Shown here piece by piece: positions 22,019 through 41,716 of a stretch of 64,000 nucleotides of DNA. A program made the position numbers and the translations under genes. The DNA lies in contig NZ_CP089985.1 of assembly GCF_021390155.1 (NCBI RefSeq), positions 1,499,001 through 1,563,000 of the forward strand, written 5' to 3'. Positions within the stretch are counted from its first letter, which is position 1, and every line of letters begins with the position of its first letter. The notes beneath the pieces are model-generated. The model was given only the letters and a program-made list of their open reading frames with translations. It had not been told where the DNA came from and made no database searches. The stretch comes from Pseudomonas sp. HN11. Lineage in GTDB: Bacteria; Pseudomonadota; Gammaproteobacteria; Pseudomonadales; Pseudomonadaceae.

Positions 22019-22034
22019 CTGTGAGTTCTGACAG
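22019..22034. promoter_or_regulatory. Shared operator, copy 1 (CTGTSA-N4-TGACAG)
   Basis: CTGTGA-GTTC-TGACAG, an imperfect palindrome 110 bp upstream of the first Ig-repeat gene. The same 16-bp pattern stands before all five Ig-repeat genes in this window. Confidence 0.6.
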
Positions 22035-22144
22035 TATCCACTCAGGCAATTTACGCTTTAACTGTTCTCCTGACCGTAGGCGGCGGGTTCGTGCCAGCGC
22101 AGTAGTCCATGGTCGCCATATCTTGGTTGCGTGGGGAGAATGAG

Positions 22145-24148
22145 ATGACTGACTCAAAGGTACGCCAACAGAAAAAAACCATCGGCAAAAAAGCCCGCCC
22201 CAACAAAAGAAAACAGAAGCCACCTGCGGTAGGGCCTGTCGCTTCAACACTTGCGGTGGCGGGCCCACTGCCGGAAGACGGCCTTCCAGTGTTATGGGAT
22301 GAAGCCGCTCGCAAAATCCCCCTGTCAGTCCGGGGCCAGCCTTTCAAAGTCACCATTCCAACCGTGTGGACGCCCAATAACGCAGCCACTAACGTGCGCA
22401 CCACCATTCGATACTTCTGGAAGGGCGACCATGTGTGGACTGAGGATATCCTCGGCCCCTATGATCCCGGCGCCCTGTTCCCGTTCACCAGAGCGCTACC
22501 GGCGTGGTTGCTGGATACGCCCGGTATCAGCCAGATGTATTACGAGATCAGTGGGGTATTGTTGCCGACGGGAGAGTCGGACCGAACGCTGATTGATGTC
22601 GACGATATCCCCCCCAACCTGGACAACCCAGGCGCCGAATTGATATTCAGCGCCGATACGCTTGACGGTGTGAGTGATGCCGAACTCTCCGCTGACGCAG
22701 GTATCCCCAGTGAAGTTCCACGTTACCTGGTCATGCGCACTGAGGACGTGGTCATGTTTTACTTTGGGCCGCTCCCCAATATCAATTATGTCGGCAGCTT
22801 GATCGTTGAACGGCGCCACATTGAAGACGGTGACCCACTGCTGTACCTGATTCCCGAGGAGTTTGTTCGCAACGGTGGTGGTGGTGAAAGGTGGGCGTCC
22901 TATAGGTTTATGGACCGTGTCGGCAACATCGGGCCTTATTCCGATCCGGTCAAACTCGATATCAATCTGATTTCCTTGCCAGACTTGCTCCGGCCTTTGG
23001 TGCCTAGGGCAGAAACCGATGGGCTGATTGACCTGGATGATATCCGCCAAGGGGTGAGCGTCTCTATCCGCGAAATAGTAGGGGCGCTTGCTGGAGATAT
23101 CATTACTCTGCGTTGGAACACCCGTGTTCTGGCGACGATTACGGTAGGCGCGACACAGATCTGGCCCATTCCCGTGGATGTAACGTGGATGGTATTCCTG
23201 GTCGGCGGGTTTGACGCTCGATACCCGGTAAGGGTCTGGTACGAGTTTGCGCGGGGATCGCTCACCAAAAACTCACCGGACACCTTCATTGAAGTCGATG
23301 CTACGGTGGCAGGTGAGCCCCCGGTCAGCCCCGATCCGATCAACCCGGTGTTGGCGTCTGTAACGGTCAAAGGGGTCACTGAGGATAACGTTGTTACACC
23401 GGCAGATTCACCCGGCCCTGTTTTGGTCGAGGTGCCTTTGTTCTTTAATCCGGAGGTGGGGGAAAACCTGCGCCTTTTCTGGGGCAATGACGCCGCATTT
23501 GCCGATATCAAAGTGGTTGATCCCGGGGATGTCGCCGGGCAGACCGTGCAGTTGTACGTGCCGTGGGCCTTGATCGTCGCGGGTGGTGGGCTGGTAGAGG
23601 TTTATTACTGGACCTATAACGGCGTCAATTATCAACGTAGCCCTGCCACCCAAGTGCGGGTTGAGTTGGACACGTTAACGGGGCTGCTTGCCCCCAACCT
23701 ACTGAACAATCACCCGAGCAAGTGGATCACTTGCGATACCGTCCCCCAGCCTTATGAGGCGGTCATCATGGCGATTCCATGGAGCACGACTCATTTTGAA
23801 GTCGGGGATACGGTCAGGTTGTTCTGGAGCAGTCACAGCACCACCAATGGTGGCGGACCGCCTATTCCGGGGTCTCAGGTCTGGTTTGAAGTGGAGCTGA
23901 TGGAGGCCCACAGAACTGCCGGCGTGGTAGAGGTCTACATCGAACCTTTCGATCCGTTGATCACGGTGCCTGGGCTGATTCCAAGCAATGGTTCAGGGTT
24001 GACTTACTACCGTCTGTACAAAGCGTCGGGCCCAACTGGCAAGTCAGCATTCACAGCGTCGCGGATTGATCTTATCCGGCCTGGTGGGTCGACGTGTCTC
24101 GCTCCGCCGGCAGGTAAGCAGTCGAAGCCTGGAAAATCAAAATCCTAA
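22145..24148 (+). CDS. Large Ig-like-repeat protein without propeller (paralogue 1)
   Basis: A 667-residue protein I cannot assign to a named family. After a lysine-rich, probably disordered N-terminus (KKTIGKKARPNKRKQKPP) come about five beta-rich modules of ~110 residues. Each runs roughly as proline-rich linker, strand, (V/A)GDxIxLxW or FEVGDTVRLFW, an aromatic strand such as VEVYYWTYNG, and SPATQVRVELD. The pattern resembles bacterial Ig-like domains. There is no signal peptide or membrane segment. The tail has GGSTC, then a basic end. ATG 22145 has GGGGAG 6 nt upstream. It shares module style and operator with four other genes in this cluster. Confidence 0.8.
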   Translation: MTDSKVRQQKKTIGKKARPNKRKQKPPAVGPVASTLAVAGPLPEDGLPVLWDEAARKIPLSVRGQPFKVTIPTVWTPNNAATNVRTTIRYFWKGDHVWTEDILGPYDPGALFPFTRALPAWLLDTPGISQMYYEISGVLLPTGESDRTLIDVDDIPPNLDNPGAELIFSADTLDGVSDAELSADAGIPSEVPRYLVMRTEDVVMFYFGPLPNINYVGSLIVERRHIEDGDPLLYLIPEEFVRNGGGGERWASYRFMDRVGNIGPYSDPVKLDINLISLPDLLRPLVPRAETDGLIDLDDIRQGVSVSIREIVGALAGDIITLRWNTRVLATITVGATQIWPIPVDVTWMVFLVGGFDARYPVRVWYEFARGSLTKNSPDTFIEVDATVAGEPPVSPDPINPVLASVTVKGVTEDNVVTPADSPGPVLVEVPLFFNPEVGENLRLFWGNDAAFADIKVVDPGDVAGQTVQLYVPWALIVAGGGLVEVYYWTYNGVNYQRSPATQVRVELDTLTGLLAPNLLNNHPSKWITCDTVPQPYEAVIMAIPWSTTHFEVGDTVRLFWSSHSTTNGGGPPIPGSQVWFEVELMEAHRTAGVVEVYIEPFDPLITVPGLIPSNGSGLTYYRLYKASGPTGKSAFTASRIDLIRPGGSTCLAPPAGKQSKPGKSKS

Positions 24149-24169
24149 TAGAAAACAGGTTGAATGAAA

Positions 24170-24190
24170 GGGGGGCTTAGGCCCCCTTGT
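24170..24190 (+). terminator. GC-rich hairpin after Ig-repeat gene 1
   Basis: GGGGGGC-TTA-GGCCCCC immediately 3' of the gene; only a short T-rich stretch follows, so termination strength is uncertain. Confidence 0.55.
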
Positions 24191-24316
24191 TGGTTTACAT
24201 CAGGGCCGGCAAATGCAGCATTAGCGCCAATCAAAGTAATCGCGCACATTCTTATTGTGTTCGGCGATTTGCGTATGTGTGCGGAAATACAACTAACGAA
24301 GATTCATTGGTTAAAC

Positions 24317-24346
24317 CGCACACCTGTCAATGTTGACAGGTGTGCG
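24317..24346. promoter_or_regulatory. Shared operator, copy 2, inside a perfect 30-bp palindrome
   Basis: CGCACACCTGTCAA-TG-TTGACAGGTGTGCG has 14-bp perfect arms. Its centre CTGTCA-ATGT-TGACAG (24324-24339) is the fully symmetrical form of the motif found before the other Ig-repeat genes. A run of six T follows at 24351, so as RNA it could also act as a terminator or attenuator ahead of Ig-repeat gene 2. Confidence 0.65.
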
Positions 24347-24431
24347 AATGTTTTTTGGAGCGCTTAATACAAATGGCCTTATGTCTGTTTTTGAAGCGGA
24401 CGAGTTATATACACTTCCGGAGTCAACCAAG

Positions 24432-26420
24432 ATGGCAAGTTTAAAGAAAACCAAAAGCCCCAAAGAGCCCAAAGCTGCCGAGAAAGCCAAGAAAAAAGCC
24501 AAGACGGCTGTTCGCTCGGTTTTGACAGAGCCTCGATCCACGCGCAAGGCGCCACGGGCAGGTACGCTTGACCCAATCCAAGGGTTGAATACGCTGCCTC
24601 CCATACCCGATGGTCAGCCCAATCTGATGAGTATCGAGACGCTTTACTTGGACGGATTGCAGTTCGCGGTCCCCAGATGGAACATAGGGGGAGGCGGCCC
24701 GGCAGCGCGTCACGAACTGGAAATCAGGCTCAATAATGTGCTCATCATGCCCCGTGAAGACCTCGGTCCTAACCTGGATGCTCCCGGCCTGGTGTGGCCT
24801 CGCCCTTATACCCTCACTCAAGCCCAAGTGGGAGATCACGGTGTCAAAAGCCTGACCTATGAAGTGTTTTTTAACCCGGCGACCAATAGTTCGAGAGAGC
24901 CGGTGAACTTTACAATCGACCGTTACGACACACACGCCAGGACTCGGCCTGCGAAGGTAGCGCTTCCGTCCTGGGTGGTCGATGGCAAAGTAACAGTGGA
25001 GTTGCTCGCAGTGCCGGGCAACATGTTCACCGTTACCTGCAGCGGTCGGCTCGATCCTCAGGTGGGTGATGAACTGTTGCTTTTCTGGCATTACACGGAT
25101 CCGACCCCGGTTGTCACTGTCAGCAATTTGCCCGTCAATAATTCACCGGTAGACGTTACCGTGCCCCTTGCGGATATTTTGAGCAAGCCCTCAGGCATCT
25201 ATCAAATGGCGTACATCTATAAAGACCGAGCGGGTAATGAAACCAGCTTTCCCCCCTATCTGACGGACATAACGCTTTCCGTTGACCCCAGCCCTTCAAA
25301 CCTGCAGCCGCCTGTCGTGCCTGAAGCGCCGCTGGATCGGGAAGATGCTCAGTTGAATCGCGCTTATGTTCGAATCACGGGCTTCGATAATGCTGAAGTT
25401 GGCGATGAAATCGTTGTCAGCTTTAACGGGCGACTGCTCTATCACAAGCTAACCAACTTCATATTCCCTAAAGACATTCCAATACCATGGCTCGATTTGG
25501 CGTTTGGAGGCGAGGCTGCACCCTATACTGCCCCGGTCTTTTACAATGTTGTTCGAAGCGGTAGTCCCTCCCCGAATTCCGCCACAATCGACGTACCAGT
25601 GGATCTTTCAGCACCGGGCCTGATACCTGATCCGGGCGGTCCTGGGCCGGTCAACCCTAACCTCGGCCTGCTTACACTCACCTCGGCTGGCGGCCTGACC
25701 AACGAAATCGGCCCGGGTGATATGGGTAATGCCACGGTTACTTTTGATGTGTATACCGGCGCAGCGGCGGGTCATCGAATTCAGATTTACTTGAAAGGCA
25801 TGCCCATGCTGACACCGCCTTACACCGTCACCGTGGCGGACGAGACGGCTACACAGTTCAGTATTACGGTTCCCGCAGCAGGCATTGCCCTGGCCGGTAA
25901 CGGTGTGCACGATGCCTATTACAGCCTCAATAACGGAACCAACAATAACTTCATCGACTCCTTGCCAACCGCGATCGATGTGAAAGCATTCGTGATTGGA
26001 GATTTGGCTGCGCTTGAATACCCAGATTCGATAGATTCCGGTATTGGCGACGGCTCCCGCTTCATGAATTGCGATCATGGCGTTGCATCAGGTATCAAAA
26101 CCAGAATCATCAGCCCAGGCAAGTTGAAGATCGGTGACAAAGTGAGCCTGGTGTGGGTGTTCTATGGGCCTGATGACTTCTACTCGACCGTTGAAGTGCT
26201 CAACCATGAGTTCCCTCCCGTGACCGTCACCCTCGATCACTTTGCCGGGCACCCTGGCGAAGAGTTTACGGTGCCCTTCACCACCTATATCTCTCCCGTC
26301 ACCGAGGGGCGTGTCGAGGCTTACTACAAAGTGCTCGGAGCGGGCGGTACTCCGGGACAGTCCGATCCTTCCATTTTGTACGTCACCCGCAAGCGCCTGG
26401 GCGGTGGTACTTGTGGCTGA
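24432..26420 (+). CDS. Large Ig-like-repeat protein without propeller (paralogue 2)
   Basis: A 662-residue relative of the preceding gene: lysine-rich N-terminus (MASLKKTKSPKEPKAAEKAK), about five Ig-like beta modules (for example VGDELLLFWHYTD, VGDEIVVSFNGRLLYHK, IGDKVSLVWVFYG), and a C-terminal VTRKRLGGGTCG that parallels the GGSTC of paralogue 1. ATG 24432 is preferred because CCGGAG lies 9 nt upstream and the basic N-terminus then matches paralogue 1; ATGs at 24330 and 24381 are alternatives. No signal peptide is seen. Function unknown. Confidence 0.75.
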   Translation: MASLKKTKSPKEPKAAEKAKKKAKTAVRSVLTEPRSTRKAPRAGTLDPIQGLNTLPPIPDGQPNLMSIETLYLDGLQFAVPRWNIGGGGPAARHELEIRLNNVLIMPREDLGPNLDAPGLVWPRPYTLTQAQVGDHGVKSLTYEVFFNPATNSSREPVNFTIDRYDTHARTRPAKVALPSWVVDGKVTVELLAVPGNMFTVTCSGRLDPQVGDELLLFWHYTDPTPVVTVSNLPVNNSPVDVTVPLADILSKPSGIYQMAYIYKDRAGNETSFPPYLTDITLSVDPSPSNLQPPVVPEAPLDREDAQLNRAYVRITGFDNAEVGDEIVVSFNGRLLYHKLTNFIFPKDIPIPWLDLAFGGEAAPYTAPVFYNVVRSGSPSPNSATIDVPVDLSAPGLIPDPGGPGPVNPNLGLLTLTSAGGLTNEIGPGDMGNATVTFDVYTGAAAGHRIQIYLKGMPMLTPPYTVTVADETATQFSITVPAAGIALAGNGVHDAYYSLNNGTNNNFIDSLPTAIDVKAFVIGDLAALEYPDSIDSGIGDGSRFMNCDHGVASGIKTRIISPGKLKIGDKVSLVWVFYGPDDFYSTVEVLNHEFPPVTVTLDHFAGHPGEEFTVPFTTYISPVTEGRVEAYYKVLGAGGTPGQSDPSILYVTRKRLGGGTCG

Positions 26421-26450
26421 AACGCTGTTCCGGATGCACTGAGTCGTTCC

Positions 26451-26490
26451 CGATAACCCTTGAGGTCAATGCCTCAAGGGTTATCGGTTT
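26451..26490 (+). terminator. Intrinsic terminator after Ig-repeat gene 2
   Basis: A perfect 15-bp stem (CGATAACCCTTGAGG and complement) with a six-base loop, followed by GTTTT. Confidence 0.82.
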
Positions 26491-28930: not shown

Positions 28931-28937
28931 CGCGTAG

Positions 28938-28975: not shown

Positions 28976-29036
28976 GCACTGGCTGTCCCGTCCTGAATAA
29001 GGTTTACACCTTCTGACCTATCTTCAGGAGGAGCCA

Positions 29037-29438
29037 ATGGATGCGGGCAAAAGGCGAAGCCAGCGTGACTACACGCTAGCCTTTAAATTATCGGTCGTAG
29101 ACCAGGTCGAAAAGGGCGAGTTGAGTTATAAAGAGGCTCAACGGCGCTACGGCATTCAGGGCCGGTCCACGGTACTGGTCTGGCTGCGCAAGCACGGCCG
29201 GCAGGACTGGAGTCAGGGCGCCTCAATTCGAGAACCGAGGAGCAGGTCCATGACTGAGCCACCCCTCCCGCTAACACCCGAGCAGCGGATCAAAGAGCTC
29301 GAAGAGCAGTTGGCGCTAAGCAACCAGAAAGCGCAGTTCTTCGAAGCCGTCGTGAATGTTCTGAAGAATGACTACGGTGTTTCTGTCGTAAAAAAGCGAC
29401 CCGGCAAGTCCTCTCGCAAGGGCAAATCCAAGACCTGA
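29037..29438 (+). CDS. IS3-family transposase OrfA
   Basis: A 133-residue DNA-binding subunit. The helix-turn-helix (YTLAFKLSVVDQVEKGELSYKEAQRRYGI) recognises the inverted repeats, and a leucine-zipper-like coiled coil (ELEEQLALSNQKAQFFEAVVNVL) mediates dimerisation. Near its end it carries the slippery heptamer that allows ribosomes to shift into the OrfB frame. ATG 29037 follows AGGAGG. Confidence 0.92.
   Translation: MDAGKRRSQRDYTLAFKLSVVDQVEKGELSYKEAQRRYGIQGRSTVLVWLRKHGRQDWSQGASIREPRSRSMTEPPLPLTPEQRIKELEEQLALSNQKAQFFEAVVNVLKNDYGVSVVKKRPGKSSRKGKSKT
29390..29396 (+). other. Programmed -1 frameshift site (A AAA AAG)
   Basis: The heptamer is aligned with the OrfA frame (GTA AAA AAG). After a -1 slip the frame is open from 29396 straight through to the OrfB stop at 30259, giving a full OrfAB transposase. 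This is the standard IS3-family mechanism. Confidence 0.85.
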
Positions 29439-29461
29439 GCATCACCAGGGCTTGCCTGTTC

Positions 29462-30259
29462 ATGGGCATTTCGCGCCAAGCATATTACCAACGAAATCGG
29501 GCTTTCGACGCGAGGGCTCGCCAAGATCAAGAGGTGATGGACTTTGTTCTTGAAAAGCGCCGACGCCAGCCACGGATCGGCACGCGCAAGCTGCATTACC
29601 TGATGAGCGTCGAATTTGGCGCATCAGTGCAGGTCGGCAGAGACCGCCTGTTCAGCATCCTGCGCAACGCTCGAGAACTGGTTGTGCGCAAACGGGCTTA
29701 CCACAAAACGACGGACAGCCATCACCGCTTTCGCCGCCATCCTAACCTGCTCAAAGCGGGCCAGAAGCAGATCGTACCCAACAGGCCAGAGCAGGTGTGG
29801 GTTGCAGACATAACCTACCTGCCGACACAGGAAAGCGTGGCTTATGTGAGCCTGGTGACAGACGCTTACTCGCGCAAGATCGTAGGCCATCATGTGCATG
29901 CGAGTTTGCATACCGAGTCGGTGATCAAAGCGATGGAAAAGGCAGTTGGTGAACGCCAAACCACGCTTCCACTAATCCATCATTCAGACCGCGGAGCCCA
30001 ATACTGCTCTGAGCTTTATCAGCGCTTGCACGCCAGTCATGGCATCAGATGCTCGATGACCGACGGCTATGACTGCTACCAGAATGCTCTGGCGGAACGG
30101 ATAAACGGCATTTTGAAGACCGAGTTTCTGCTGTATCGCCCTAAAAATCTGGCGGATGCAGTGAAGATGGTGGGTGAGTCGGTGCTGATCTACAACGGGG
30201 AAAGGCCACACATGTCCCTGAAATACAAAACGCCCGATGCGGTGCATCGAGCGTTTTGA
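29462..30259 (+). CDS. IS3-family transposase OrfB (DDE catalytic domain)
   Basis: A 265-residue integrase-core protein counted from ATG 29462, but normally made as the C-terminal part of the OrfAB fusion. The N-terminal HTH_21 region (RQPRIGTRKLHYLMS) precedes the rve domain, with catalytic residues in WVADITYLP (Asp), IHHSDRGAQYCS (Asp) and NALAERINGILKTE (Glu). It performs strand transfer of the excised circle. The frame is intact. Confidence 0.95.
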   Translation: MGISRQAYYQRNRAFDARARQDQEVMDFVLEKRRRQPRIGTRKLHYLMSVEFGASVQVGRDRLFSILRNARELVVRKRAYHKTTDSHHRFRRHPNLLKAGQKQIVPNRPEQVWVADITYLPTQESVAYVSLVTDAYSRKIVGHHVHASLHTESVIKAMEKAVGERQTTLPLIHHSDRGAQYCSELYQRLHASHGIRCSMTDGYDCYQNALAERINGILKTEFLLYRPKNLADAVKMVGESVLIYNGERPHMSLKYKTPDAVHRAF

Positions 30260-30329: not shown

Positions 30330-33300
30330 TTAAAGATCAACCAGCGTAACGACGTTTGCCCTATCGCTTGAGACTAACAGGTGCTGGCCATTGGGCGTCA
30401 CTTTTAGCGCCCTGGGACCGTTGAACCCTCGCAGCGTGGCCACGTCTTTTAGTTCGTTGGTGGAGGCATCCAAAACTCTGACTGTATCGGTACCGAAGTC
30501 CGCCACATAAAGTTGTTCCTGAGACGGATGCGTTGCCACTCCCAAAGCATTGGTAAAGCCTGATTTCAAGTGCGTCATGTTGTTGAGCAGGCGATTAAAC
30601 ATACCCACGTTAGTAACGGCTGCAAAGAAGGCTTTTTCACTTTTATTAGAAAAGGCAATGTCGTTAACGGGATTGCTAAAGGGCGCCCCGGTTATGTACG
30701 TGTCCGACGCCGTATCCAGTCGGCGTATGCCGCTTGTGCCTGAGTTGATGTAAAGGACATTTTCGGGCGATGTGTAGAGTCGTCCTGCGGAAGATACTGA
30801 AGAGATGTATGTGAGGATAGCATGGGTCAAAGTGTTGACTTTAAGCAGGTAGTAGGTGTATCTGGAGTTATAATAATAATAGCCTGTAGCATAAGCTGAA
30901 GTGTTCGTTCCGTTAGTTGCGGTAATGTTTTGGGCGTAGTAATAACTGGTATTGCTATAACCAACGTAGCCGAAGGTGGCCGCGTCGTAAAAATAAAAGG
31001 AATGTGGGTAGGCCCTGCTGACTATTAGTTTTTTGCCGTCATTGCTTAAAGCGATTCCACTGGAGTACGACAAGACTATGGTCGTTACGACGGCGGCTGT
31101 GTTTATATCAATAACACTGATGGTTTTTGAACCTGCGTTATACACAAACGCCGTCACGCTGTTCTGCGTTATAACAATCTGGTGCGGGCCCGCACCCACA
31201 GGAATATGTTTAGAAATTACGGGCTGCCGATCCACCACGTACTCAACCGGTTTCAGCTTGATCGCGCTGCTTTCCACGCCCAGTTCATCCATCGAAACAC
31301 TCGCTTCGACGGTCAGCACACTGCCTTGGGGCAGACTTTGCCTATAGGCCTCAGGTATAAGGTCAAGCGTGCGCTTGGCCGCAAACTCAGCAGCGCTTAC
31401 CTTGATGCCTTGTCGCAGGAACAGATCGGAAGAACTCCTCAGGCGAATGAAAACCGCTTGCTGCCGATTGAAGAATGGCCACTCGTCGATCCTGACGTTG
31501 GCGGACTGGCTCGCATCAATAACCCCATCTTTCTCTTCTGGCACACTCACCACGTCCAGCGTTTGATTCGATAATGCCAGCACGTTAACGGTGAGTGGAG
31601 GTGACTCTAAGGGTTGTCCATTGCGAAGCACTTCAAAATAAGCTGTGAACGATCCACCCAGGTACGCAGCCACCAATGAACTACTCCACGTAAATGTGAT
31701 GTAGGTGTGGCCCGTATCCGGGATGCCAGGTTTGCTCGGAATGTTCGGCGTTCCAAGTCCCGGTTTGCCGAGTATGAACAGTGTTACAAGGTCTTGGGGC
31801 TGCGTATCATATTCCACCCGGAATGTGAGAATCCTCGGACGTGGCGGTAGTACATCGTTTGTATCGAGCTGCACCACGCCGGGTGATAAGTACGTCGATT
31901 CCAGAAGGGTTGGGTGCTTGTTCAACTGCAACATTGCCCCTACGTTAACGATCAGCGGCAGAGACTTGAGCGGAATGTCCGTGGGCCTTTTCCTGACTTC
32001 CCAATGCAGTGTCATGGTTCCATTTTTATTGTTCAGGACAATATTGCGCGCAATGGTGAAAGGCAGCACAGTGCCAAACCAAACCGATGTTACTTTCAGC
32101 CAGTCGGTGGTAATGCTGCCGCCCGGCTTGCTGCCCGTGGCAACTACTCGAACCTCGTCGTCCAAGGCAATAGCGGAATGCGGGTCGACAAGGGCTCTGA
32201 GATTGCCTTTACTCACAAGCTCGTCAAATACATGGTCTGGCGGTGGTGCTTCTTGTGACCTGGGGGCGGGTAACAGGATTTGAATGCTACCGACTCGTAC
32301 GATCACCGATTGTGAAGGGCGGGCGGCGTCGTTGTCGACGATGTAAAACGCCTCGAACGAGGAACCTTCCAATTCGCTGAATGGCCAGTAGTCCAAGAAG
32401 AAATGGGTGTCTCCGGCGCCTGCGATCTCCGTGTACCGCAAATACACGGGGACGCCGACGAGGCTTCTGCCTTCGATGATCAAGTCGATTCTGGTTCCGG
32501 GAGCCTGTCCGAAACCGCGTACGGTTATTTCTACCGGGTTGGTATCTACCGGCAGTACACCGCCCACGGTGCCATGTACAACAGGCGGCAAGCGACGGTT
32601 GTCAACCGGCGTGCCCCTCATGCCGTAAATTACGGCCTGGGAAGGCGTATCAGTCGTTCCCGACCGAATGCGCTTATAGGCGGCCAGCAAACGGCCCCCT
32701 GTCAGTTTTTGGACGAAGCCCAATGGCAGAGCAATGTTGGCGCGGATCAGGGTGGGCTGCAGCACTGTATAGGGTTCGGTGTGCGTCAGCGTATCACCGG
32801 TCGAGGTAAGCCCAGTGTAGGTGACAAGTAGTTCGTCATTGGCGAGCCAGCCATGGTTTCTAATCGGTACCTCGAAGTTCAAATCCTTCGTTTGTGCATC
32901 GACATTGATAAACTCTTCATTTAACTCATCATCGTAATCGGACTCAGTGACATGCCCCTCAATCAGGTAAGGGTTGGATCCACCACCTGCATTGTTTTGT
33001 ATGAATCTTGGAACGGAAAAACCGATGGACTGATTACCTGCCTTATCCCTTACATACCATTCCAAAATGTTCACGCCGGGTGTCACTTGCTGCCAGGTGC
33101 CGTCATAGATGGTTATAGCAATGGGCGTGGTACCGGAAGCTTCAAGGCTGCTCACCGTGTGAGGCACGATCCTCCCGCCGATACTCACGTAGATCACATC
33201 GCCTTCTTTGCGGTGGTACACCTGATCCACCAGCGGATTCAACGGATATTTATCAATGAGGATCTCGACACCTAATTGGGCAGCTGCCTGGCTGATGATC

Positions 33301-33896
33301 CCAAAGGCTTCGATGCTTGGATCTACAAACCTGATGACCCCCATGTTTTCATTAATGATGGGGGTGCTTACCTGAGGGTCCAGGCCTGCGGGTTCTTTTG
33401 TATCTACCCAGATACTCAATGCCCGAGTCTCGTCAGTGGTGCCGCTCAGGCGTTTGACGAACGCTTGAAGTTTATTATTCGCCTGGTCGATAAATCTAAC
33501 GCTGTCTATCGTGAGGAAAACGTCTTTGCCGATCTCGGCGTCTTCTTTGCTGACGGTATAGTGAGCCACCTCTGTATCGTTGAGATTCACCCAGACGTAG
33601 TCACCTTCGGCCTGTGCAACCCAGGCATAAAGAATGTAAATGACGCCCAGCGAGCTGACCGTCAGTGCTGCCTTGTTGAGGGCGCCATCGGTGTCAGGTA
33701 TAGGGGTGAGGTTTGGAATGTACGGAGTCAATTCAGCAAAGGGGTATCGACCGTCAGTCCCGCTTGGTGGGGCGCATCCGTCTGGAGCAGGTTTGTCAGG
33801 TAAGCGTCCCAACGATGACTTGCTACGTTTAATGCGCGCGACCGTTGGTTCGCAGCCGTCGTGTAGAGAAGATTCGGGAGATTGAGAGTCGGTCAT
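30330..33896 (-). CDS. Ig-like-repeat protein with C-terminal YVTN beta-propeller (paralogue A)
   Basis: A 1188-residue protein of unknown function. The N-terminal ~50 residues are charged and proline-rich (RIKRSKSSLGRLPDKPAPDG) with no signal peptide. About seven ~110-residue Ig-like modules follow, with conserved starts such as GGVLPVDTNPVEITVRGFG and APPPDHVFDELVSKGNL. From about residue 905 comes a YVTN/YncE-type propeller (HIPVGAGPHQIVI; NAGSKTISVIDINTAAVV; QLYVADFGTDTVRVLDAS). One propeller stretch is very rich in Tyr, Asn, Ser and Thr, and its DNA is unusually AT-rich. It is a tandem paralogue of the 34437-38087 gene. Its downstream side was hit by the IS3 element. Confidence 0.82.
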   Translation of the reverse strand: MTDSQSPESSLHDGCEPTVARIKRSKSSLGRLPDKPAPDGCAPPSGTDGRYPFAELTPYIPNLTPIPDTDGALNKAALTVSSLGVIYILYAWVAQAEGDYVWVNLNDTEVAHYTVSKEDAEIGKDVFLTIDSVRFIDQANNKLQAFVKRLSGTTDETRALSIWVDTKEPAGLDPQVSTPIINENMGVIRFVDPSIEAFGIISQAAAQLGVEILIDKYPLNPLVDQVYHRKEGDVIYVSIGGRIVPHTVSSLEASGTTPIAITIYDGTWQQVTPGVNILEWYVRDKAGNQSIGFSVPRFIQNNAGGGSNPYLIEGHVTESDYDDELNEEFINVDAQTKDLNFEVPIRNHGWLANDELLVTYTGLTSTGDTLTHTEPYTVLQPTLIRANIALPLGFVQKLTGGRLLAAYKRIRSGTTDTPSQAVIYGMRGTPVDNRRLPPVVHGTVGGVLPVDTNPVEITVRGFGQAPGTRIDLIIEGRSLVGVPVYLRYTEIAGAGDTHFFLDYWPFSELEGSSFEAFYIVDNDAARPSQSVIVRVGSIQILLPAPRSQEAPPPDHVFDELVSKGNLRALVDPHSAIALDDEVRVVATGSKPGGSITTDWLKVTSVWFGTVLPFTIARNIVLNNKNGTMTLHWEVRKRPTDIPLKSLPLIVNVGAMLQLNKHPTLLESTYLSPGVVQLDTNDVLPPRPRILTFRVEYDTQPQDLVTLFILGKPGLGTPNIPSKPGIPDTGHTYITFTWSSSLVAAYLGGSFTAYFEVLRNGQPLESPPLTVNVLALSNQTLDVVSVPEEKDGVIDASQSANVRIDEWPFFNRQQAVFIRLRSSSDLFLRQGIKVSAAEFAAKRTLDLIPEAYRQSLPQGSVLTVEASVSMDELGVESSAIKLKPVEYVVDRQPVISKHIPVGAGPHQIVITQNSVTAFVYNAGSKTISVIDINTAAVVTTIVLSYSSGIALSNDGKKLIVSRAYPHSFYFYDAATFGYVGYSNTSYYYAQNITATNGTNTSAYATGYYYYNSRYTYYLLKVNTLTHAILTYISSVSSAGRLYTSPENVLYINSGTSGIRRLDTASDTYITGAPFSNPVNDIAFSNKSEKAFFAAVTNVGMFNRLLNNMTHLKSGFTNALGVATHPSQEQLYVADFGTDTVRVLDASTNELKDVATLRGFNGPRALKVTPNGQHLLVSSDRANVVTLVDL

Positions 33897-33996
33897 GGTG
33901 GGATACCTGTCTGAGTCTTAATTAAGGACACGACTCGTATCACCCCTGCGTTGAGTCGCAGCCTAAATTCAATGCCCTGCCTCTCACTCTGCCTAG

Positions 33997-34012
33997 CTGT
34001 GAGAAATGACAG
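33997..34012. promoter_or_regulatory. Shared operator, copy 3 (CTGTSA-N4-TGACAG)
   Basis: CTGTGA-GAAA-TGACAG, 101 bp upstream of paralogue A. The surrounding leader (33899-34027) is closely similar to that of paralogue B (38091-38219), including the stretch CTCTGCCTAGCTGTGAGAAA. Confidence 0.6.
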
Positions 34013-34034
34013 TGCCGACAGACGGTAACGACCC

Positions 34035-34318
34035 AACTGGGTGTAACCGGTGGCGGCAACTTCCAGCTGGAAAGCGGCAGTGTGGTGCAGCCGTACCTGA
34101 AAGCCGCAGTGGCCCATGAGTTCGACCAGAGCAACAAGGTGCTCGTCAACGACAATGCGTTCAACAATGACCTCTCGGGTTCGCGCTTGAAACTGGGTGC
34201 GGGTGTGGCGATGTCGGTATCGCAGAACCTGAAGCTGCATGCGGATCTGGAGCGCAGCGTTGGGCAGAATATCAAGCAGCCGCTGGGGGTGAATGTGGGG
34301 TTGCGCTTCGACTTCTAA
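34035..34318 (+). pseudogene. Truncated copy of the autotransporter beta-barrel 3' end
   Basis: About 284 bp closely matching 28651-28930 of the intact autotransporter, ending in the same GVNVGLRFDF outer-membrane signature and stop. Differences are scattered and mostly synonymous (roughly 90% identity by eye). There is no signal peptide, passenger or start; the 5' break falls directly at the promoter leader of paralogue A. It is a duplication scar. Confidence 0.88.
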
Positions 34319-34348
34319 GGTGATGCAGTTGCACGCCTGATGATGCAT

Positions 34349-34436: not shown

Positions 34437-37400
34437 TTACAACTTGACCAGTGTCGCGAAGTCGGCCTTACCGTTTGCTACCAGCATATGTTTGCCATCG
34501 GATGCGACTTCAGCATCCATAGGGCCGTGGAATCCCTGCAACACACTGATGGGTTCAGGCTTGTCGTTTGTGGTGTCGAGAATGGTGACTTCATCGCTAT
34601 CAAAATCACCGACATAAATCTTCTCGGCGATGGGGTGCGTAGCAACCATCCTTGCGTTGTCGAATGTCGTCACCTTAAGAAGCAGGGTATTGAGTTTTCG
34701 ATTGAAAACCCCCAATTCGGTACCTTTGACATAAAAGCCTTTTTCGCCGGTTTGCGAAAAAGCAAGATCGGCGACGGCCCCGGGAAACGGTGCTGAAGTG
34801 ATCCATGAATCGGAGGCAGTATCGTACCGACGCATCCCGAATGCCCCAAAGTCAGCAAATAGGATATTCTCGGGGGTCATGAAAACCCTCGAGATTTGCG
34901 ATGGAGCAGTGGGGGAAACTGCTTGGACCGTATGGTTTTGCAGGTTGAGTTTTACGAGCCGATGTTCGTAATAGGAATTGATCCACTCAGCAATTGCAGC
35001 GTACCCCCAGGAGGGTTGCCCAGAGGTTGTCGTGATATCCTGAGGTAACCGACGACCCAGTTGGATATGGGCAAGCAGTGTATAGGTATGGGCGTCAAAT
35101 ACACGGATGTAACTCCCTGGGACCAAGATCTCGTGGTAATAACTTGCCAGCAGTTTTGTTCCGTCGGCACTCAAAGCAATCCCCCAGCACCTGGGCACTG
35201 CAAGCGTATGAACGACATTGGCGGCTTGAATATCAATGACGCTGATTGAACCCGAGCCAATGTTCAATACAAATGCGATTTGGCTATCGGGCCTTATGAC
35301 GATCCGGTGTGGACCCAGCCCAACCGGGATGTGTTTGACAATGGAAGCCTTGCGCTGAATGCCGTACGACACTGGTTTCAGCGCGATAGCGTTGCTTTCA
35401 AGCCCTGTCTCATCCATGGATACGCTGGCAAGCACCCTCAGGGTGCCACCATCATTGAGTTTGTCGAGATAGTCCTGCGGGATCAGATCAAGCGTGCGCC
35501 TGGCTGTGAACTCTGCTGCGCTGACTTTGATGCCTTGACGCAAAAACAGACTCTCCACGCACTGCAGGTGAATGAAGACAGGTTGCTGCTGTTTGAAGAA
35601 GGGCCAGGCTTTCGCTTCGACGTGGTTAGGCTGGCTGGTATCGATCAGCCCTCCTAGCGCTTCAGGAACGCTCACCAAATCAAGTGTTTGTTCTGACAGC
35701 GCATCCACGTTAACGGTCAGTTTGGCAGACTCAATAATATCGTTGTTGCGCTTCACTTCAAAATGCGCGGTGAAGGACTCACCCACGTAAGCCGCGACAA
35801 AATCACTGATATAGGCAAACGTGATGTAGTCATGGCCGGCATCCGGGATACCGGGTTTGGGAGGAATTGCGGGCATGCCTACGCCTGGCTTGTTCTGTAC
35901 CACCAGCGTCACAAGGTCTGCGGGGTTCATCGGGTACTTGACCCTGAACGTGACAATACGAGGCGAAGGCGTCCAGACGTGCAGCGCGTTAAGTTGCGCG
36001 ACACAAGGCGCCACGTAAGTGCTTTCGAGCAGGCTGGGGCACTCGGTCAATTGCAATCTCGCGCCTACATTGACGACCAATGGCAGGGATTTAAGCGGTG
36101 TATCGGTAGGCAGCGTCCTGACTTCCCAGTGCAGTGTCATGGTGCTTTCTTTGTTCGCCAACACAACCAAGCGTGCAATCGTGAAGGGCAGCGATGAGTT
36201 ATGCCAGGCGGGCGTCACTTTCAGCCACGCGGTGGTTGTACTGCCACCTGGTTTGCTGCCAGTGGCAACAATTCTGACCTCATCGTTCAGGGCAATGCTC
36301 GAATGTGGATGGACGAGTGCCTTCAGGTTGCCTTTGCTGACGAGCTCGTCAAACACATGGTCAGGCGGTGGTGCTTCTGCTGATGTGGGAGGGGGCAGCG
36401 TCACCGTAATGTCACCCACCTGGACGGTCACTGATTTCGAGGGGCGGGTGAAGTCGCCATTGACCACGTAATACGCCGTGAAGGTGGATCCCTCCAGGAC
36501 GGCGAAGACGCTGGCATAGTCCAGGAAGTAGTCGATCGGTCCAGTGCCCGCGATCTCAGTGTATTTCGCATAAACAGGCGTACTATCGAGGGCTTTGCCT
36601 TCGATGATCAGGTCGACCTTGTCACTGGGATCTTGCCCGAAGAAAGGCACGGTAATTTCTACTGGATCGGTATCTACCGGCAAGACTCCGCCCACGAGTC
36701 CTTTGACTATAGGGGCCGGCCGACTGTTGTCGACAGGTGTGCCGCGCATACTGTAAACGACGGCATTGGAGGGCGTATTCGCTTCACCCGCCCGCACGCG
36801 TTCATAAGTAATCAGCAAGCGGCCGCCCGCAAGCTTTTTGGCAAACATCAACGGCAGAGGAACGTAAATTCGCAGCGCATTTGGCTGTGGAACGTTAACT
36901 GTTTCGGTGTGTTTTGAGGTCTCGCCTGTTGCGGTCAGCCCGAGATAGGTGACGAGTGCCTCGTCGTTGGCAACCCAACCATGATTTCTGATTTGTATTT
37001 CAAAGTTCAGGTCGCTCGATTGTGAATCTGTGTCAATGAAGTCTTCGTCTGAACCTGCGTCGTAATCAGATTCAACCACCAGTCCCTCAGGCAGCAACGG
37101 ACCGGTACCCCCGCCCACATTGTTTTGTATGAGCCTTGGAACTGAAAAGCCGATGGACTGATTACCGGCCTTATCCCTTGCAAACCATTCAAGAATGTTT
37201 ACCCCGGGCGTCACCTGTAGCCAAATGCCGTAGTTGATGGTGATAACGATGGGCGCGTTGCCGGAGGCCTCAAAATTGCTGACTATGTGGGTGTCGATCA
37301 CACCGCCAATACTGATGAAGATCACATCACCTTCTTTGCGGTGGTAGACCTGATCCACCAGCGGGTTCACCGGGTATTTATCAATGATCACCTTGATGCC

Positions 37401-38087
37401 CAGTTGAGCGGCCGTTGAGGTGATGATGCCGAAGGCTTCGATGGTTGGATCTTCGAAGCGCACACGCGCCAGGTTTTCATTGATGGTGGGTGTACTGGCC
37501 TGTGGGTCGAGGCCCCCTGGCTCCTTTTGGTCCACCCAGACGCTCAAGGCGTCGGTCTGATCCGTGGTGCCACTAAGGCGCCTGACGAAGCCTTGCAACG
37601 TGTTGTTCGTCTGATCGATAAACCGGACGGACTCAATGTTCAGGGTAACGTCCTTGCCGATGGCTGCATCAGTATCGGAGACGGTGTAGCTGGCGACCTG
37701 CAAACCATTGAGCTCAACCCAGACAAAGTCATTCTCAGCCTGTCCAAACCACGCTTGGAGGGTGTAGATGACGCCGAGGGCGCTGACCGTCAGGGCGGCT
37801 TTATTGAGGGCGCCGTCAGTGCCAGGTATGGGGGTCAGGTTAGGAATATAAGGGTATAGATCCGCGAATGGCAGCCGTGTTGAAGGGGGCCTGTGAAAAC
37901 CTGGTGGGCAGCCTCCGACATCTGGCCGGTCAGGCAGGCGACCTCCAGCTTTTTTGCTCGGTCTTCTGCGCTGCACTGTGGGCACGCAACCATGCGGCAG
38001 GGCTGGCAGCGTAGTTTGAACGGGTGCAGGCTCCGTAGATGTGCAGTCACAGGTCAGGGCTGGCGGGAGATTTTGATCATGTGTCAT
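34437..38087 (-). CDS. Ig-like-repeat protein with C-terminal YVTN beta-propeller (paralogue B)
   Basis: A 1216-residue tandem paralogue of the 30330-33896 product, collinear over its whole length. The N-terminal region has several cysteines (TCDCTST, HGCVPT, GGCPPGF) and a basic patch (RRRPSKKAGG), again without signal peptide. About seven Ig-like modules follow (for example FADLYPYIPNLTPIPGTDGALNKAALTV; APPPDHVFDELVSKGNLKAL), then a propeller from about residue 935 (HIPVGLGPHRIVIRPDSQIAFVLNIGSGSISVIDI). The propeller here is of normal composition, unlike the Tyr-rich stretch in paralogue A. Role unknown; propellers usually serve in binding. Confidence 0.82.
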   Translation of the reverse strand: MTHDQNLPPALTCDCTSTEPAPVQTTLPALPHGCVPTVQRRRPSKKAGGRLPDRPDVGGCPPGFHRPPSTRLPFADLYPYIPNLTPIPGTDGALNKAALTVSALGVIYTLQAWFGQAENDFVWVELNGLQVASYTVSDTDAAIGKDVTLNIESVRFIDQTNNTLQGFVRRLSGTTDQTDALSVWVDQKEPGGLDPQASTPTINENLARVRFEDPTIEAFGIITSTAAQLGIKVIIDKYPVNPLVDQVYHRKEGDVIFISIGGVIDTHIVSNFEASGNAPIVITINYGIWLQVTPGVNILEWFARDKAGNQSIGFSVPRLIQNNVGGGTGPLLPEGLVVESDYDAGSDEDFIDTDSQSSDLNFEIQIRNHGWVANDEALVTYLGLTATGETSKHTETVNVPQPNALRIYVPLPLMFAKKLAGGRLLITYERVRAGEANTPSNAVVYSMRGTPVDNSRPAPIVKGLVGGVLPVDTDPVEITVPFFGQDPSDKVDLIIEGKALDSTPVYAKYTEIAGTGPIDYFLDYASVFAVLEGSTFTAYYVVNGDFTRPSKSVTVQVGDITVTLPPPTSAEAPPPDHVFDELVSKGNLKALVHPHSSIALNDEVRIVATGSKPGGSTTTAWLKVTPAWHNSSLPFTIARLVVLANKESTMTLHWEVRTLPTDTPLKSLPLVVNVGARLQLTECPSLLESTYVAPCVAQLNALHVWTPSPRIVTFRVKYPMNPADLVTLVVQNKPGVGMPAIPPKPGIPDAGHDYITFAYISDFVAAYVGESFTAHFEVKRNNDIIESAKLTVNVDALSEQTLDLVSVPEALGGLIDTSQPNHVEAKAWPFFKQQQPVFIHLQCVESLFLRQGIKVSAAEFTARRTLDLIPQDYLDKLNDGGTLRVLASVSMDETGLESNAIALKPVSYGIQRKASIVKHIPVGLGPHRIVIRPDSQIAFVLNIGSGSISVIDIQAANVVHTLAVPRCWGIALSADGTKLLASYYHEILVPGSYIRVFDAHTYTLLAHIQLGRRLPQDITTTSGQPSWGYAAIAEWINSYYEHRLVKLNLQNHTVQAVSPTAPSQISRVFMTPENILFADFGAFGMRRYDTASDSWITSAPFPGAVADLAFSQTGEKGFYVKGTELGVFNRKLNTLLLKVTTFDNARMVATHPIAEKIYVGDFDSDEVTILDTTNDKPEPISVLQGFHGPMDAEVASDGKHMLVANGKADFATLVKL

Positions 38088-38189
38088 GACGGGATACCTG
38101 TCTGAGTGTTAATCAAGAGCACGACCCGTAATCCATCGTTGAATTGAGTCGCAGCCTCGATTCAACGCCTCCCCTGCCACTCTGCCTAG

Positions 38190-38205
38190 CTGTGAGAAAT
38201 GACAG
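38190..38205. promoter_or_regulatory. Shared operator, copy 4 (CTGTSA-N4-TGACAG)
   Basis: CTGTGA-GAAA-TGACAG, 103 bp upstream of paralogue B, identical to copy 3 and at the same distance from the start codon. Confidence 0.6.
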
Positions 38206-38228
38206 TGCCGACCAACGGCTCTCTCGGT

Positions 38229-41200
38229 TCATAGCACGACTACCGACACAGTGTTATTACGTGCATTTGCCACATAGGCATAGACGCCGTCCGGTGATAC
38301 CACCACGCCTCGTGGCTGGCTGAATCCAGCATAAGTGCCGATCACGCTCTGCGCTCGTGTATCCACGAGGGTCAGCAAGTCGGCGCCGCTTTGGGTGATA
38401 TAGGCGCGCTCCAGTTTCGGGTGAAAGGCTACGCCGTATGGGCGATTCAGACCGCTCAAGGTCTGGCTGATCTGCAGCGTTGCGGTATTGCCGATCAACA
38501 CGGTACCTCGGTCGGGCTGGTTGATATAGACGCGTTGCAGCACCGGGCTGTGGGCGATTTGCCGGGGTGCCGAGACGGTGTTGACTTGGCTGAGCTGGGC
38601 GTTGTTCGCCAGGTTGAAGGCCCGCCAATCAAACACGCCGGCGATATGCGCACGGGTTCCGTCCGGGCTCAGCGCGATGGCACTGGGTCGGGGGGTGGGC
38701 ACGCGGCTGACCACATTGTGGCTGATCGTGTCGATAATCACCATCTCTGACGCGCCGTAGTCCGCCACATAAAGGCGCGTGCCCGCCTTGTTCAGCGTGA
38801 GTCCGTGTACGGTGGAGAAGCCTGTGAGTGTGTGGATCGTCGAGTAGTTCAGCGTGCTGATCACGCGAACCGGTGTATTGGCAGCGGTGCTGTTATCCGG
38901 CACATACAGGCGGCTGCCGTCGGGGTGCAAGGCCAACCAGAGCGGTGAGCCTATGCCTGTAATCGTGTGGATGACCCGGTAGTTTTGTGTGTCGATCACC
39001 GCCACGGATCGGGGTGTGGTGGCTTGGGTCAGGTATAGCCGCGTGCCGTCGGCACTGAGTGCCAGGTTTGTGGGAGTGCCGGCTGCGCGGATATTGGCCA
39101 TGACCCCTTTGGTGTTCTCGATCCGGTAGCTGACCGTGCCCAGCTTGACCGCGAAGTCTTTGTGGGAGCTGCCATTGAGTGAGATGCGGGTTTCCACGGT
39201 GAGCGTACTGCGGTTGGGCAGGGAACGCAGATAGCTCGCAGGCAGGCTATGTTCCACGCGCGTGGCCGCGAATTCTGCCGCAGTCAGTGGCGTGCCTTCG
39301 CGCAAAGGCAGGTTGGCGGCGCCTTTGATGTCTATCCACACCGGTTGCCCGTTGCGCATGAAGGGCCACTCCAACACCTGCACGCTGTGAGCTTTGCTGA
39401 CATCAATCACACCCGCCAGCGCCTGCGGCACGCTGACCCGGTCGAGGAGTTGAGCGGGCAGTTTTTCTACTGTGAGGCTCAAGATTTGCGACGACGTGCT
39501 CGCGCCGCCCCGCGTGACGATATAGGACACCCCGACTAGCTGGCCGAGATTGGCGGCAATCACCTGGTTGGAGAATGAGAAGTCGACATAACCCAACGCC
39601 GGGTCGGCGGGTTTTGGCGCGATCTGCGGAGTGCCCAGGCCGAATGTGCCCTTGAAGAACGGCTGAATATCATCCCCCGCCAGCATGGGATAGCGAACGC
39701 GCAGAGTGACCACCGGTGCAGCCGGCGGCAGCACATGCAAGGGGTTGAGCGTTGCCGTCGCGGGGCCGGTGACCGTGCTTTGCAGGATCAGTGGCACGTC
39801 CAGTTGCAACGCGCTCCCTACCTTCATCACCAGCGATTGTGAATACAGTGTGCGTAGCCCGGGCCGTTCGACGTTGTAGTAGATCCGGGCCGAACGGTTG
39901 AGGTTGGCCAGCACATAGACGCGCGGGACCACAAACTTCAAATCCTCGCCGAACCCAGCGTCGGTGATCAGCCGCCGCATGGGTGGCGCACTGCCGCCCA
40001 GTGCGCTGCCTTCGAAGTACAGCACCACCGTTGCGCCCAGCACAAATGCGACGTGCCACCTGACAGTGACATTGGCATTGGTGCGGGAAATGTCTGGGTC
40101 AAAGGTCAGGTCGGGTTCCGGCGCCTGGAGCACCTGGACCTTGGGTAACGCCTCCATTGGCTCGCCGATCAGCAGGTTCAGGTCCTTTGAGGGCGGACGC
40201 TGTCCGGGCAGGTTGATGTAGTAATAGAGGCGTAGCGTGCCGCTTTCCAACTGGCGAATATCACCGTCCTGGCCGTTGGCGAGGTCGAAAATGATGTCGT
40301 CCGTGCCCGCCGGTAGGCGATGTTCCTGATAAAACCCATGGCCATTGGCATACTTGCCGTCCAATACCAGTGTCACGCAATCATCAGGGTGCTGGCCCAT
40401 GTAGGAAATGACTATGACTCTGACGGGATCGATCAGCGGGTTGAGCACACCACCGTTGGCTGCCGGCACCTGAGGCGCGTCCAGCCCGGTATCAACCGGC
40501 GTACCCGTTACCTGGATGAAGGCGTTTTCCGAAGGCACGCCAGGTTGATTTGAGCGAAGGCGCTCGTAACTGAGCCGAGCCTGGGCGCCAATCAGTAGAC
40601 TCAGGTCTGCGTTTGGCCATGCAATATCGAGGTACTGAACGGCGGTTGAACCAACAGGGGCGCTGTAGATTTTTTCCACATCCACCCCGGCCAGGGTGCG
40701 CCCCCTGAGGCTGGCCCGCAGTGTGTCGCCGCTTGCCCAGCCTTTACCGGCAATGGGGAACCGCAACGTTGCGCTTTTACCTGCAAGCTTGTCGGCATCC
40801 AGTGTGCCGCCGGGCGCCTCGACGATATGTCCTGGGTCCAGCAATTGCTCGTTTGGATTCAGACGTACCTCAATTATTTCTAACGGCGAGCGACCGGGCG
40901 TGTAATTGCCCACTTCGTCCAATACGTCATAAGCGCAGGCATGCCGGCCGCTGCCGATCTTCAGCCAGGTGCTGTAATTCACCATCACCGTGATCGGGTT
41001 TCGATTGCCGGTCTGGCCTTCGGTGACGAGATGCTCGACGATTTCACTGCCGATGATCAGCCGGATCCGGTCACGCACTGCGCGGTGGGTATTGGTGGGC
41101 AAGGTGGTATCGACTGGGTAAAAACCGATGCTCACGGCAACACCCCGCTGGGCTGCCGCTGAATCGATGAGGGTCTGGGCGGGTTGCGGGCGCGGCAGGC

Positions 41201-41636
41201 GCTCGTTGACCCAGGGCGGTGCCACGATGGGGTCGTTACCGGTCGGTGCCACCCGGTCTGTTTTGAGGGTAAGGCGCTGGGTTTCTTCGCTGCGCGAATC
41301 CAGGTGCGTGACGACCATGTAAACCGGGCCTGCCGTGCCATCCGACAGGCGTGCCAAAGGAATGCGCAAGACAATCGCTTTTTCCTCGCGGGCTTCCTGT
41401 TCCGTGACTGTATGGGAATCGACCGGTATGTCGGGGTTGGCGCAGATCAGCGCAATGAAGTCACCTTCCGCCTGGCTGGCATAGCTTCTCAGGATGCAGA
41501 TAAGCCCGTCGTCGCCATGGGACTCAAGCAAGGCTCTGTTGACGCCGCCGCCGAAGCCGACCACCGGGACTTTCAAACCGGGGATATACGGAGCCAGTAG
41601 CGCGACGGGAGGGCGGGCATTTCGCGTTGGGCGCAT
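38229..41636 (-). CDS. Ig-like-repeat protein with C-terminal YVTN beta-propeller (paralogue C)
   Basis: A 1135-residue, more diverged member of the A/B family. It lacks the longer N-terminal tail and starts with MRPTRNARPPVALLAPYIPGLKVP, equivalent to the PYIPNLTPIP block of A and B. About seven Ig-like modules precede a well-formed propeller with regular YVTN units (LYLTQATTPRSVAVIDTQNY; LYVADYGASEMVIIDTISHNV; AYVANARNNTVSVVVL at the very end). ATG 41636 is chosen since GGAG stands 9 nt upstream; an ATG three codons earlier abuts that GGAG. No signal peptide. Higher G+C than paralogue A suggests a longer residence or different origin. Confidence 0.82.
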   Translation of the reverse strand: MRPTRNARPPVALLAPYIPGLKVPVVGFGGGVNRALLESHGDDGLICILRSYASQAEGDFIALICANPDIPVDSHTVTEQEAREEKAIVLRIPLARLSDGTAGPVYMVVTHLDSRSEETQRLTLKTDRVAPTGNDPIVAPPWVNERLPRPQPAQTLIDSAAAQRGVAVSIGFYPVDTTLPTNTHRAVRDRIRLIIGSEIVEHLVTEGQTGNRNPITVMVNYSTWLKIGSGRHACAYDVLDEVGNYTPGRSPLEIIEVRLNPNEQLLDPGHIVEAPGGTLDADKLAGKSATLRFPIAGKGWASGDTLRASLRGRTLAGVDVEKIYSAPVGSTAVQYLDIAWPNADLSLLIGAQARLSYERLRSNQPGVPSENAFIQVTGTPVDTGLDAPQVPAANGGVLNPLIDPVRVIVISYMGQHPDDCVTLVLDGKYANGHGFYQEHRLPAGTDDIIFDLANGQDGDIRQLESGTLRLYYYINLPGQRPPSKDLNLLIGEPMEALPKVQVLQAPEPDLTFDPDISRTNANVTVRWHVAFVLGATVVLYFEGSALGGSAPPMRRLITDAGFGEDLKFVVPRVYVLANLNRSARIYYNVERPGLRTLYSQSLVMKVGSALQLDVPLILQSTVTGPATATLNPLHVLPPAAPVVTLRVRYPMLAGDDIQPFFKGTFGLGTPQIAPKPADPALGYVDFSFSNQVIAANLGQLVGVSYIVTRGGASTSSQILSLTVEKLPAQLLDRVSVPQALAGVIDVSKAHSVQVLEWPFMRNGQPVWIDIKGAANLPLREGTPLTAAEFAATRVEHSLPASYLRSLPNRSTLTVETRISLNGSSHKDFAVKLGTVSYRIENTKGVMANIRAAGTPTNLALSADGTRLYLTQATTPRSVAVIDTQNYRVIHTITGIGSPLWLALHPDGSRLYVPDNSTAANTPVRVISTLNYSTIHTLTGFSTVHGLTLNKAGTRLYVADYGASEMVIIDTISHNVVSRVPTPRPSAIALSPDGTRAHIAGVFDWRAFNLANNAQLSQVNTVSAPRQIAHSPVLQRVYINQPDRGTVLIGNTATLQISQTLSGLNRPYGVAFHPKLERAYITQSGADLLTLVDTRAQSVIGTYAGFSQPRGVVVSPDGVYAYVANARNNTVSVVVL

Positions 41637-41700
41637 GATGATCATCTCCGGAGGGTGAGGCGCGAGACGATTTAGAACACTTGGAGAGGGGGCGGAACAA

Positions 41701-41716
41701 CTGTGAGATTTGACAG
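41701..41716. promoter_or_regulatory. Shared operator, copy 5 (CTGTSA-N4-TGACAG)
   Basis: CTGTGA-GATT-TGACAG, 65 bp upstream of the paralogue C start. Lies in the 125-bp gap before the AbrB-family gene, whose 3' end faces it. Confidence 0.6.

Follow-up and report, generated by a model that had tools for sequence, protein, structure and literature searches.

Which regulator, if any, is shared by the five giant genes for immunoglobulin (Ig)-like and YVTN-repeat proteins that lie clustered in Pseudomonas sp. HN11? The question is raised by a 64,000-nucleotide stretch of contig NZ_CP089985.1 (positions 1,499,001 to 1,563,000; the whole stretch is called the window below), in which one short palindrome precedes each of these genes. 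Judged by its sequence, the palindrome, CTGTCA-N4-TGACAG with the outline CTGT-N8-ACAG, is an operator of the lux-box type, and the five Ig-repeat genes are predicted members of a genome-wide regulon with approximately 16 sites in HN11. The explanation that we favor, and consider rather probable, is a lux-box regulon with a PpoR-type (subgroup A) LuxR solo as its most likely activator.

Operator sites of the Ig-repeat genes

The pattern CTGTSANNNNTGACAG, with copy 2 counted on either strand, was found at five places in the window and in none of 100 dinucleotide shuffles. When up to two mismatches were allowed, 10 matches were obtained in the window against 9.1 by chance, so the signal resides in the exact sites. 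Each of the five Ig/YVTN-repeat genes has a plausible start codon approximately 55-110 bp downstream of its copy:

22019..22034, plus strand: operator copy 1, CTGTGAGTTCTGACAG, upstream of the Ig-repeat gene 22145-24148
24324..24339, plus strand: operator copy 2, CTGTCAATGTTGACAG, within 14-bp arms about a TG centre (24317-24346); core of 20 bp, ACCTGTCAATGTTGACAGGT
33997..34012, minus strand: operator copy 3, coding strand CTGTCATTTCTCACAG, upstream of gene 33896-30330
38190..38205, minus strand: operator copy 4, coding strand CTGTCATTTCTCACAG, upstream of gene 38087-34437; leader in common with copy 3
41701..41716, minus strand: operator copy 5, coding strand CTGTCAAATCTCACAG, upstream of gene 41645-38229

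A preliminary description of this DNA had placed the five sites at these positions and before no other gene of the window, and both statements hold, there being exactly five sites. The "perfect 30-bp palindrome" that it described at copy 2 is symmetric at 28 of the 30 positions, i.e., in its 14-bp arms but not in the TG centre. The leaders of copies 3 and 4 are duplicated, as had been proposed (83% identity over 122 aligned columns), which would fit the view that the motif is functionless baggage copied with the duplicated genes.

Conservation of the operator within the genus

Across 298 Pseudomonas genomes there are 2262 occurrences of the pattern, compared with 84 of a control. At least four sites (4-36 each) are present in 164 genomes, referred to below as site-rich, three in 11, and 0-2 in 123.

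The same genomes were searched, with the motif ignored, for homologues of the N-terminal 299 amino acids (aa) encoded by gene 33896-30330. This gave 59 matches in 38 genomes, and 55 start regions were examined, including that of the window gene itself (two other window genes, one match at a contig end and the second piece of one gene were left out). A site is present in 48 of the 55 regions (38 exact, 10 with one mismatch). The seven loci lacking it comprise five in genomes with 0-2 sites (G007, G089, G096, G110 and G169) and two in G018, which has six sites; Ig homologues of site-poor genomes thus carry a site at 0/5 loci, in a division of genomes that is partly circular, as each promoter site raises the count of its own genome. 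The distance from site to start codon (assignable in 46 of 48 cases) is 63-113 bp, plus one of 182 bp, and the homologue with the latter distance has a one-mismatch site at 95.

Read along the gene, the site of the 48 Ig promoters is CTGTCATTTCT[C/G]ACAG. Its outer bases were fixed by the selection of the sites, while positions 9 and 10 were free; position 9 is T in 47/48 promoters and position 10 is C in 42/48. Since these two positions are conserved though unselected, conservation of the centre is independent of the selection, and the site is directional. C at position 12 (17/48) was found only in genomes with a PpoR match of exponent -95 or better and in G262, whose solo match is in two pieces.

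In an alignment of 64 rows (one promoter entered twice) the 16-mer stands out against poorly conserved flanks, and in the 18 genomes whose sites were inspected, sites also stand before unrelated genes. Together with the missing sites at the Ig homologues of site-poor genomes, these results contradict the baggage view, which we regard as highly improbable. The suggestion that the shared site is selected was therefore sound, the site being conserved before homologous genes elsewhere (48/55 loci).

Two sites, at L094:2001 and L114:2001, lie 52 and 102 bp before genes resembling, by eye, those of NarL-type response regulators; the regulon may thus include its own regulators.

Predicted promoter architecture and lux-box type of the motif

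Each operator copy of the window is followed by a -10-like hexamer of a putative promoter (offsets are counted from the start of the site):

22057..22062, plus strand: TTTAAC, offset 39, copy 1
24363..24368, plus strand: CTTAAT, offset 40, copy 2
33967..33972, minus strand: TTGAAT, offset 41, copy 3
38160..38165, minus strand: TTGAAT, offset 41, copy 4
41671..41676, minus strand: TCTAAA, offset 41, copy 5

Among the 48 site-aligned Ig promoters, -10-like hexamers peak at offset 41, where 17 have at least four of six matches to TATAAT; the maximum at any offset in 200 shuffles was 7. At least four matches are present in 3/5 of the window's own promoters, and in 3/11 non-Ig HN11 promoters, in which the mean match peaks at offset 40. 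If the hexamer is taken as positions -12 to -7, the palindrome would extend from about -52 to -37; its centre would fall at about -44, and its 3' edge would abut the -35 position. So placed, it would lie about where the lux box does at a LuxR-activated promoter (the centre of the lux box at luxI is at -42.5). The -10 spacing agrees with a class II position upstream of a sigma-70 promoter, relative to a predicted start site.

The CTGT-N8-ACAG outline is also that of the Escherichia coli LexA box, which has an AT-rich N8 and lies over repair-gene promoters. This likeness would suit a regulator that is not of the LuxR family and that every site-rich genome possesses, a reading that we consider quite unlikely. 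The LexA box itself was rejected: the HN11 sites have no alternating AT core, and the scanned target genes are not DNA-repair genes. Their predicted position, upstream of the -35 element rather than over the promoter, is activator-like. Other palindrome-binding proteins were set aside on site position and target genes.

The motif has the dyad of a lux box, approximately 20 bp long and ending in CTG and CAG with 10 bases between them. The lux box of Vibrio fischeri LuxR is given as ACCTGTAGGATCGTACAGGT in PMC4444344, and further lux boxes are given in PMC8553950 and PMC6064868. The HN11 motif shares with the V. fischeri box the 16-bp core CTGT-N8-ACAG and the predicted position next to -35, and the 20-bp dyad of copy 2 has the same ACCTGT...ACAGGT arms. 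It differs in the inner CA-N4-TG, in the more than 12 scattered sites in one genome and in that no LuxI was found. The earlier statement that the motif matches no known type of regulator is thus to be revised, its outline being that of the lux box. A literature text search for six exact site sequences found no paper, and no title or abstract on the operator of a subgroup A solo was found in the PpoR, LuxR-solo and lux-box literature (subscription journals were outside the scope of this search).

The predicted regulon in the HN11 genome

In the HN11 genome (6.27 Mb) the symmetric pattern CTGTSANNNNTSACAG has 17 occurrences and the reversed control pattern has none. Five of the sites belong to the Ig cluster and 12 lie outside it; the regulon proposed earlier for the five Ig genes was therefore right in kind, but too narrow. 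The outside sites are located before (i) ten genes for short proteins (72-174 aa), (ii) an amidohydrolase gene (L023) and (iii) a gene encoding a 314-aa protein, at a distance of 344 bp (L020). Compared with Pfam, thioredoxin alone among the ten short proteins passes the cut-off; DUF6252 and DUF3757 fall below it, and seven proteins gave no match. By eye, one is SET-domain-like, a signal peptide is seen in one, and several contain much beta-type sequence. For one short protein relatives were searched, and five were found besides itself, the named ones all from Pseudomonas. On a home-made codon score the short site-bearing genes rank low in comparison with their neighbors, as do recent or fast-changing genes.

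The sequence CTGTCACCGATGACAG, which precedes the amidohydrolase gene, is identical in three genomes (L023:5091, L108:2001 and L120:2001), and a permease-like gene is divergent from the amidohydrolase gene at L023. Though counted among the 17, it is probably the site of another regulator. At L018:5025-5068 the operator lies inside longer inverted repeats followed by a T run, which have the look of an intrinsic terminator on the plus strand; extended palindrome arms are also found at copy 2 of the window.

A PpoR-type LuxR solo as candidate activator

The HN11 genome contains two matches to the autoinducer-binding family. The first LuxR-type solo adjoins two proline iminopeptidase genes and is of the plant-responsive kind. 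The second (G000:5410966-5411673), located between fpr, which encodes a ferredoxin-NADP reductase, and rlmG, has both the autoinducer-binding domain and the LuxR helix-turn-helix (HTH) domain. The preliminary description had placed the regulator outside the cluster, which agrees with the presence elsewhere in the genome of these two solos and of a bare LuxR-type DNA-binding domain, described below. According to PMC8546723, the fpr-ppoR-rlmG neighborhood is that of PpoR and the subgroup A LuxR solo, the latter having the widest distribution of all solos in the P. fluorescens species; three solos are recorded in a plant pathogen (PMC3909224).

In the proposed mechanism a LuxR-type dimer, bound at the site just upstream of a weak sigma-70 promoter, would contact RNA polymerase and thereby turn on transcription of the gene (class II activation). 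The rlmG-linked solo would sense an acyl-homoserine lactone (AHL) or a similar signal made by others, because no LuxI was found in HN11; the LuxI family gave no match in this genome, but no control genome gave a match either. PpoR is listed with 3-oxo-C6-AHL (PMC10134790). For the tested subgroup A solo the available text of PMC8546723 records no direct evidence for gene targets, and its own and flanking promoters showed no dependence in the published test, so its targets may lie elsewhere. No operator or direct target of PpoR is reported in the available parts of PMC8546723, PMC10134790 and PMC2703642.

The distribution of the solo points to a connection with the sites. In searches that scored only the best first-look candidates per genome, 147/200 genomes with a solo match of exponent -30 or better have at least four sites, as against 17/98 of the others; the corresponding values are 51/51 for an exponent of -60 or better and 1/42 for genomes with no solo match.

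The recognition helix was sampled in 80 loci, best matches first: 50 of 147 site-rich (at least six sites in this sample) and 30 of 45 site-poor (0-2 sites). The residue preceding T-V is arginine in 50/50 site-rich loci and serine or asparagine in 26/30 site-poor ones. Both fpr and rlmG flank the solo in 48/50 site-rich loci, with fpr alone in two at contig ends, and in 28/30 site-poor loci. Arginine is also present in 76 of the best 80 of 250 named solo relatives. Inspection by eye did not support a link of operator bases 5 or 12 with Gly/Asn in the recognition helix of PpoR.

Several points weigh against PpoR. An array of P. putida over-expressing PpoR, with a single biological sample per strain, lists genes of amino-acid catabolism, ribosomal genes and sulfur genes in the available text of PMC2703642. 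The arginine/serine split follows clades and may stem from common descent instead of function. Of the 164 genomes with at least four sites, 17 lack a PpoR match of exponent -30 or better, and 53/200 genomes with such a match carry fewer than four. Moreover, rlmG-linked solos that keep the arginine occur in G116, G224 and G231, genomes with 1-2 sites. The objection from the P. putida array is tempered by the solos of P. donghuensis and P. wadenswilerensis, two species that we take to belong to the P. putida group: the candidate is like P. putida PpoR in its fpr/rlmG neighborhood and both domains, whereas the solos of these two species carry serine, not arginine.

The best LuxR match contains an internal stop in G074, G090, G185, G189 and G230, four of which are site-rich; the solo may occasionally be lost in strains that retain the sites.

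Exception genomes and the mtn-linked LuxR

As an absolute claim, PpoR as the sole regulator is ruled out by the 17 site-rich genomes without such a match. In 14 of these a LuxR-type protein of approximately 240 aa is encoded adjacent to mtnD. G088 and G177 contain no more than a short rlmG-linked LuxR frame (accompanied in G088 by two other LuxR-type proteins), and G222, a 73% complete genome, has a match to the mtn-linked HTH. In the exception genomes inspected, the genes that follow the sites include Ig-type, RHS-repeat, thioredoxin, DUF2599 and histidine-kinase genes; with such similar site-bearing genes, this looks like the same regulon.

HN11 has a short form of the mtn-linked protein, an 89-aa LuxR-type DNA-binding domain alone (L270:4929-5198, corresponding to G000:C1:4376928-4377197, minus strand), whose gene adjoins the acireductone-dioxygenase gene (mtnD); relatives of approximately 240 aa are encoded at the same locus in another lineage. 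The C-terminal domain of LuxR is reportedly an inducer-independent activator, as the title of a 1991 work by Choi and Greenberg has it. The 89-aa protein, known here from sequence, resembles LuxR cut to that domain in being a bare LuxR-type DNA-binding domain, and differs in that its gene occurs naturally, at a single locus in many genomes.

It could be argued that the mtn-linked LuxR, as the full protein or the 89-aa domain, is the actual binder and PpoR a bystander. The mtn-linked protein is the sole match to the autoinducer-binding family in 9/17 exception genomes (one below the curated cut-off), and the site is kept at 6/8 Ig loci of the PpoR-less lineage (G020, G085, G151, G183, G194 and G249), both misses being in G018. 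Between the mini-form and the full form, HTH identity is 51-70% (61% for the HN11 protein). We nevertheless hold this explanation to be unlikely. Of 19 better-scoring mtn loci inspected, one came from G203 (three sites), and 0/18 of the remaining, site-rich genomes (11-34 sites) have a LuxR within approximately 1.5 kb of mtnD, which rules out this protein as the sole regulator. In addition, its recognition helix reads EATV, EATI, ESTV or QATV in 26 rows, arginine never being found, and nine of the 23 genomes that encode the full form contain just 0-3 sites. No LuxR was found at the 11 site-poor mtn loci inspected.

The non-LuxR reading introduced above gains from the fact that neither LuxR candidate alone covers every site-rich genome. 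Against it, all 164 are covered when the candidates are combined: 147 by a PpoR match (most of them unchecked for rlmG linkage), 14 by the full mtn-linked LuxR, two by the short rlmG-linked frame and G222 by its mtn-linked HTH match. PpoR and the full mtn-linked LuxR together account for 161/164. Because neither explains all genomes by itself, PpoR is rated no higher than rather probable as the activator. The incomplete cover also leads us to propose, tentatively and as a doubtful extension, a single operator network in which two LuxR-type regulators replace each other between lineages. Genomes without the mtn-linked LuxR would rely on PpoR, and those without PpoR on the full mtn-linked LuxR; in HN11 and similar genomes, PpoR would be joined by the 89-aa protein, which would act on the same sites independently of a signal, as a constitutive activator or competitor.

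Genes of the cluster and neighboring features

The genes preceded by the five operator copies are as follows:

22145..24148, plus strand: Ig-type repeat protein of 667 aa, without Pfam match; alternative start at 22109
24432..26420, plus strand: Ig-type repeat protein of 662 aa, without Pfam match; 18 homologues, the named ones all from Pseudomonas
30330..33896, minus strand: protein of 1188 aa, C-terminal part weakly similar to the YNCE/lactonase beta-propeller (YVTN)
34437..38087, minus strand: paralogue of 1216 aa, without Pfam match
38229..41645, minus strand: paralogue of 1138 aa with a beta-propeller-like C-terminal part

The N-terminal part of the 30330..33896 protein is common to the products of 34437..38087 and 38229..41645. 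An insertion sequence (IS) element or its remnant (29037-30259), encoding an rve integrase-core transposase of 265 aa (29462-30259), separates an autotransporter gene from the three minus-strand Ig genes. Beside copy 3 there are reading frames at 33893-34348 (minus strand) and 34082-34318 (plus strand). The latter looks, by eye, like the C-terminal part of an autotransporter beta-domain, as would be left if the duplication behind copies 3 and 4 had cut through an autotransporter gene. Elsewhere in the window, a C4 antisense RNA with an a1b1 target element is located at 14694-14891, near a tRNA-Gly(ccc) (15395-15468) and a DUF6124 gene (14928-15167).

Biological significance

The conserved operator of the Ig cluster is genuine and belongs to a common type, the lux box, for a class of regulators whose targets were open. 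Predicted at 4-36 sites per genome in 164/298 genomes, it gives the subgroup A solo a testable regulon. If the assignment is true, giant Ig/YVTN-repeat proteins, RHS-repeat proteins and many short proteins without recognizable domains would be tied to cell-cell signaling, and this tie would hint at when these proteins are made.

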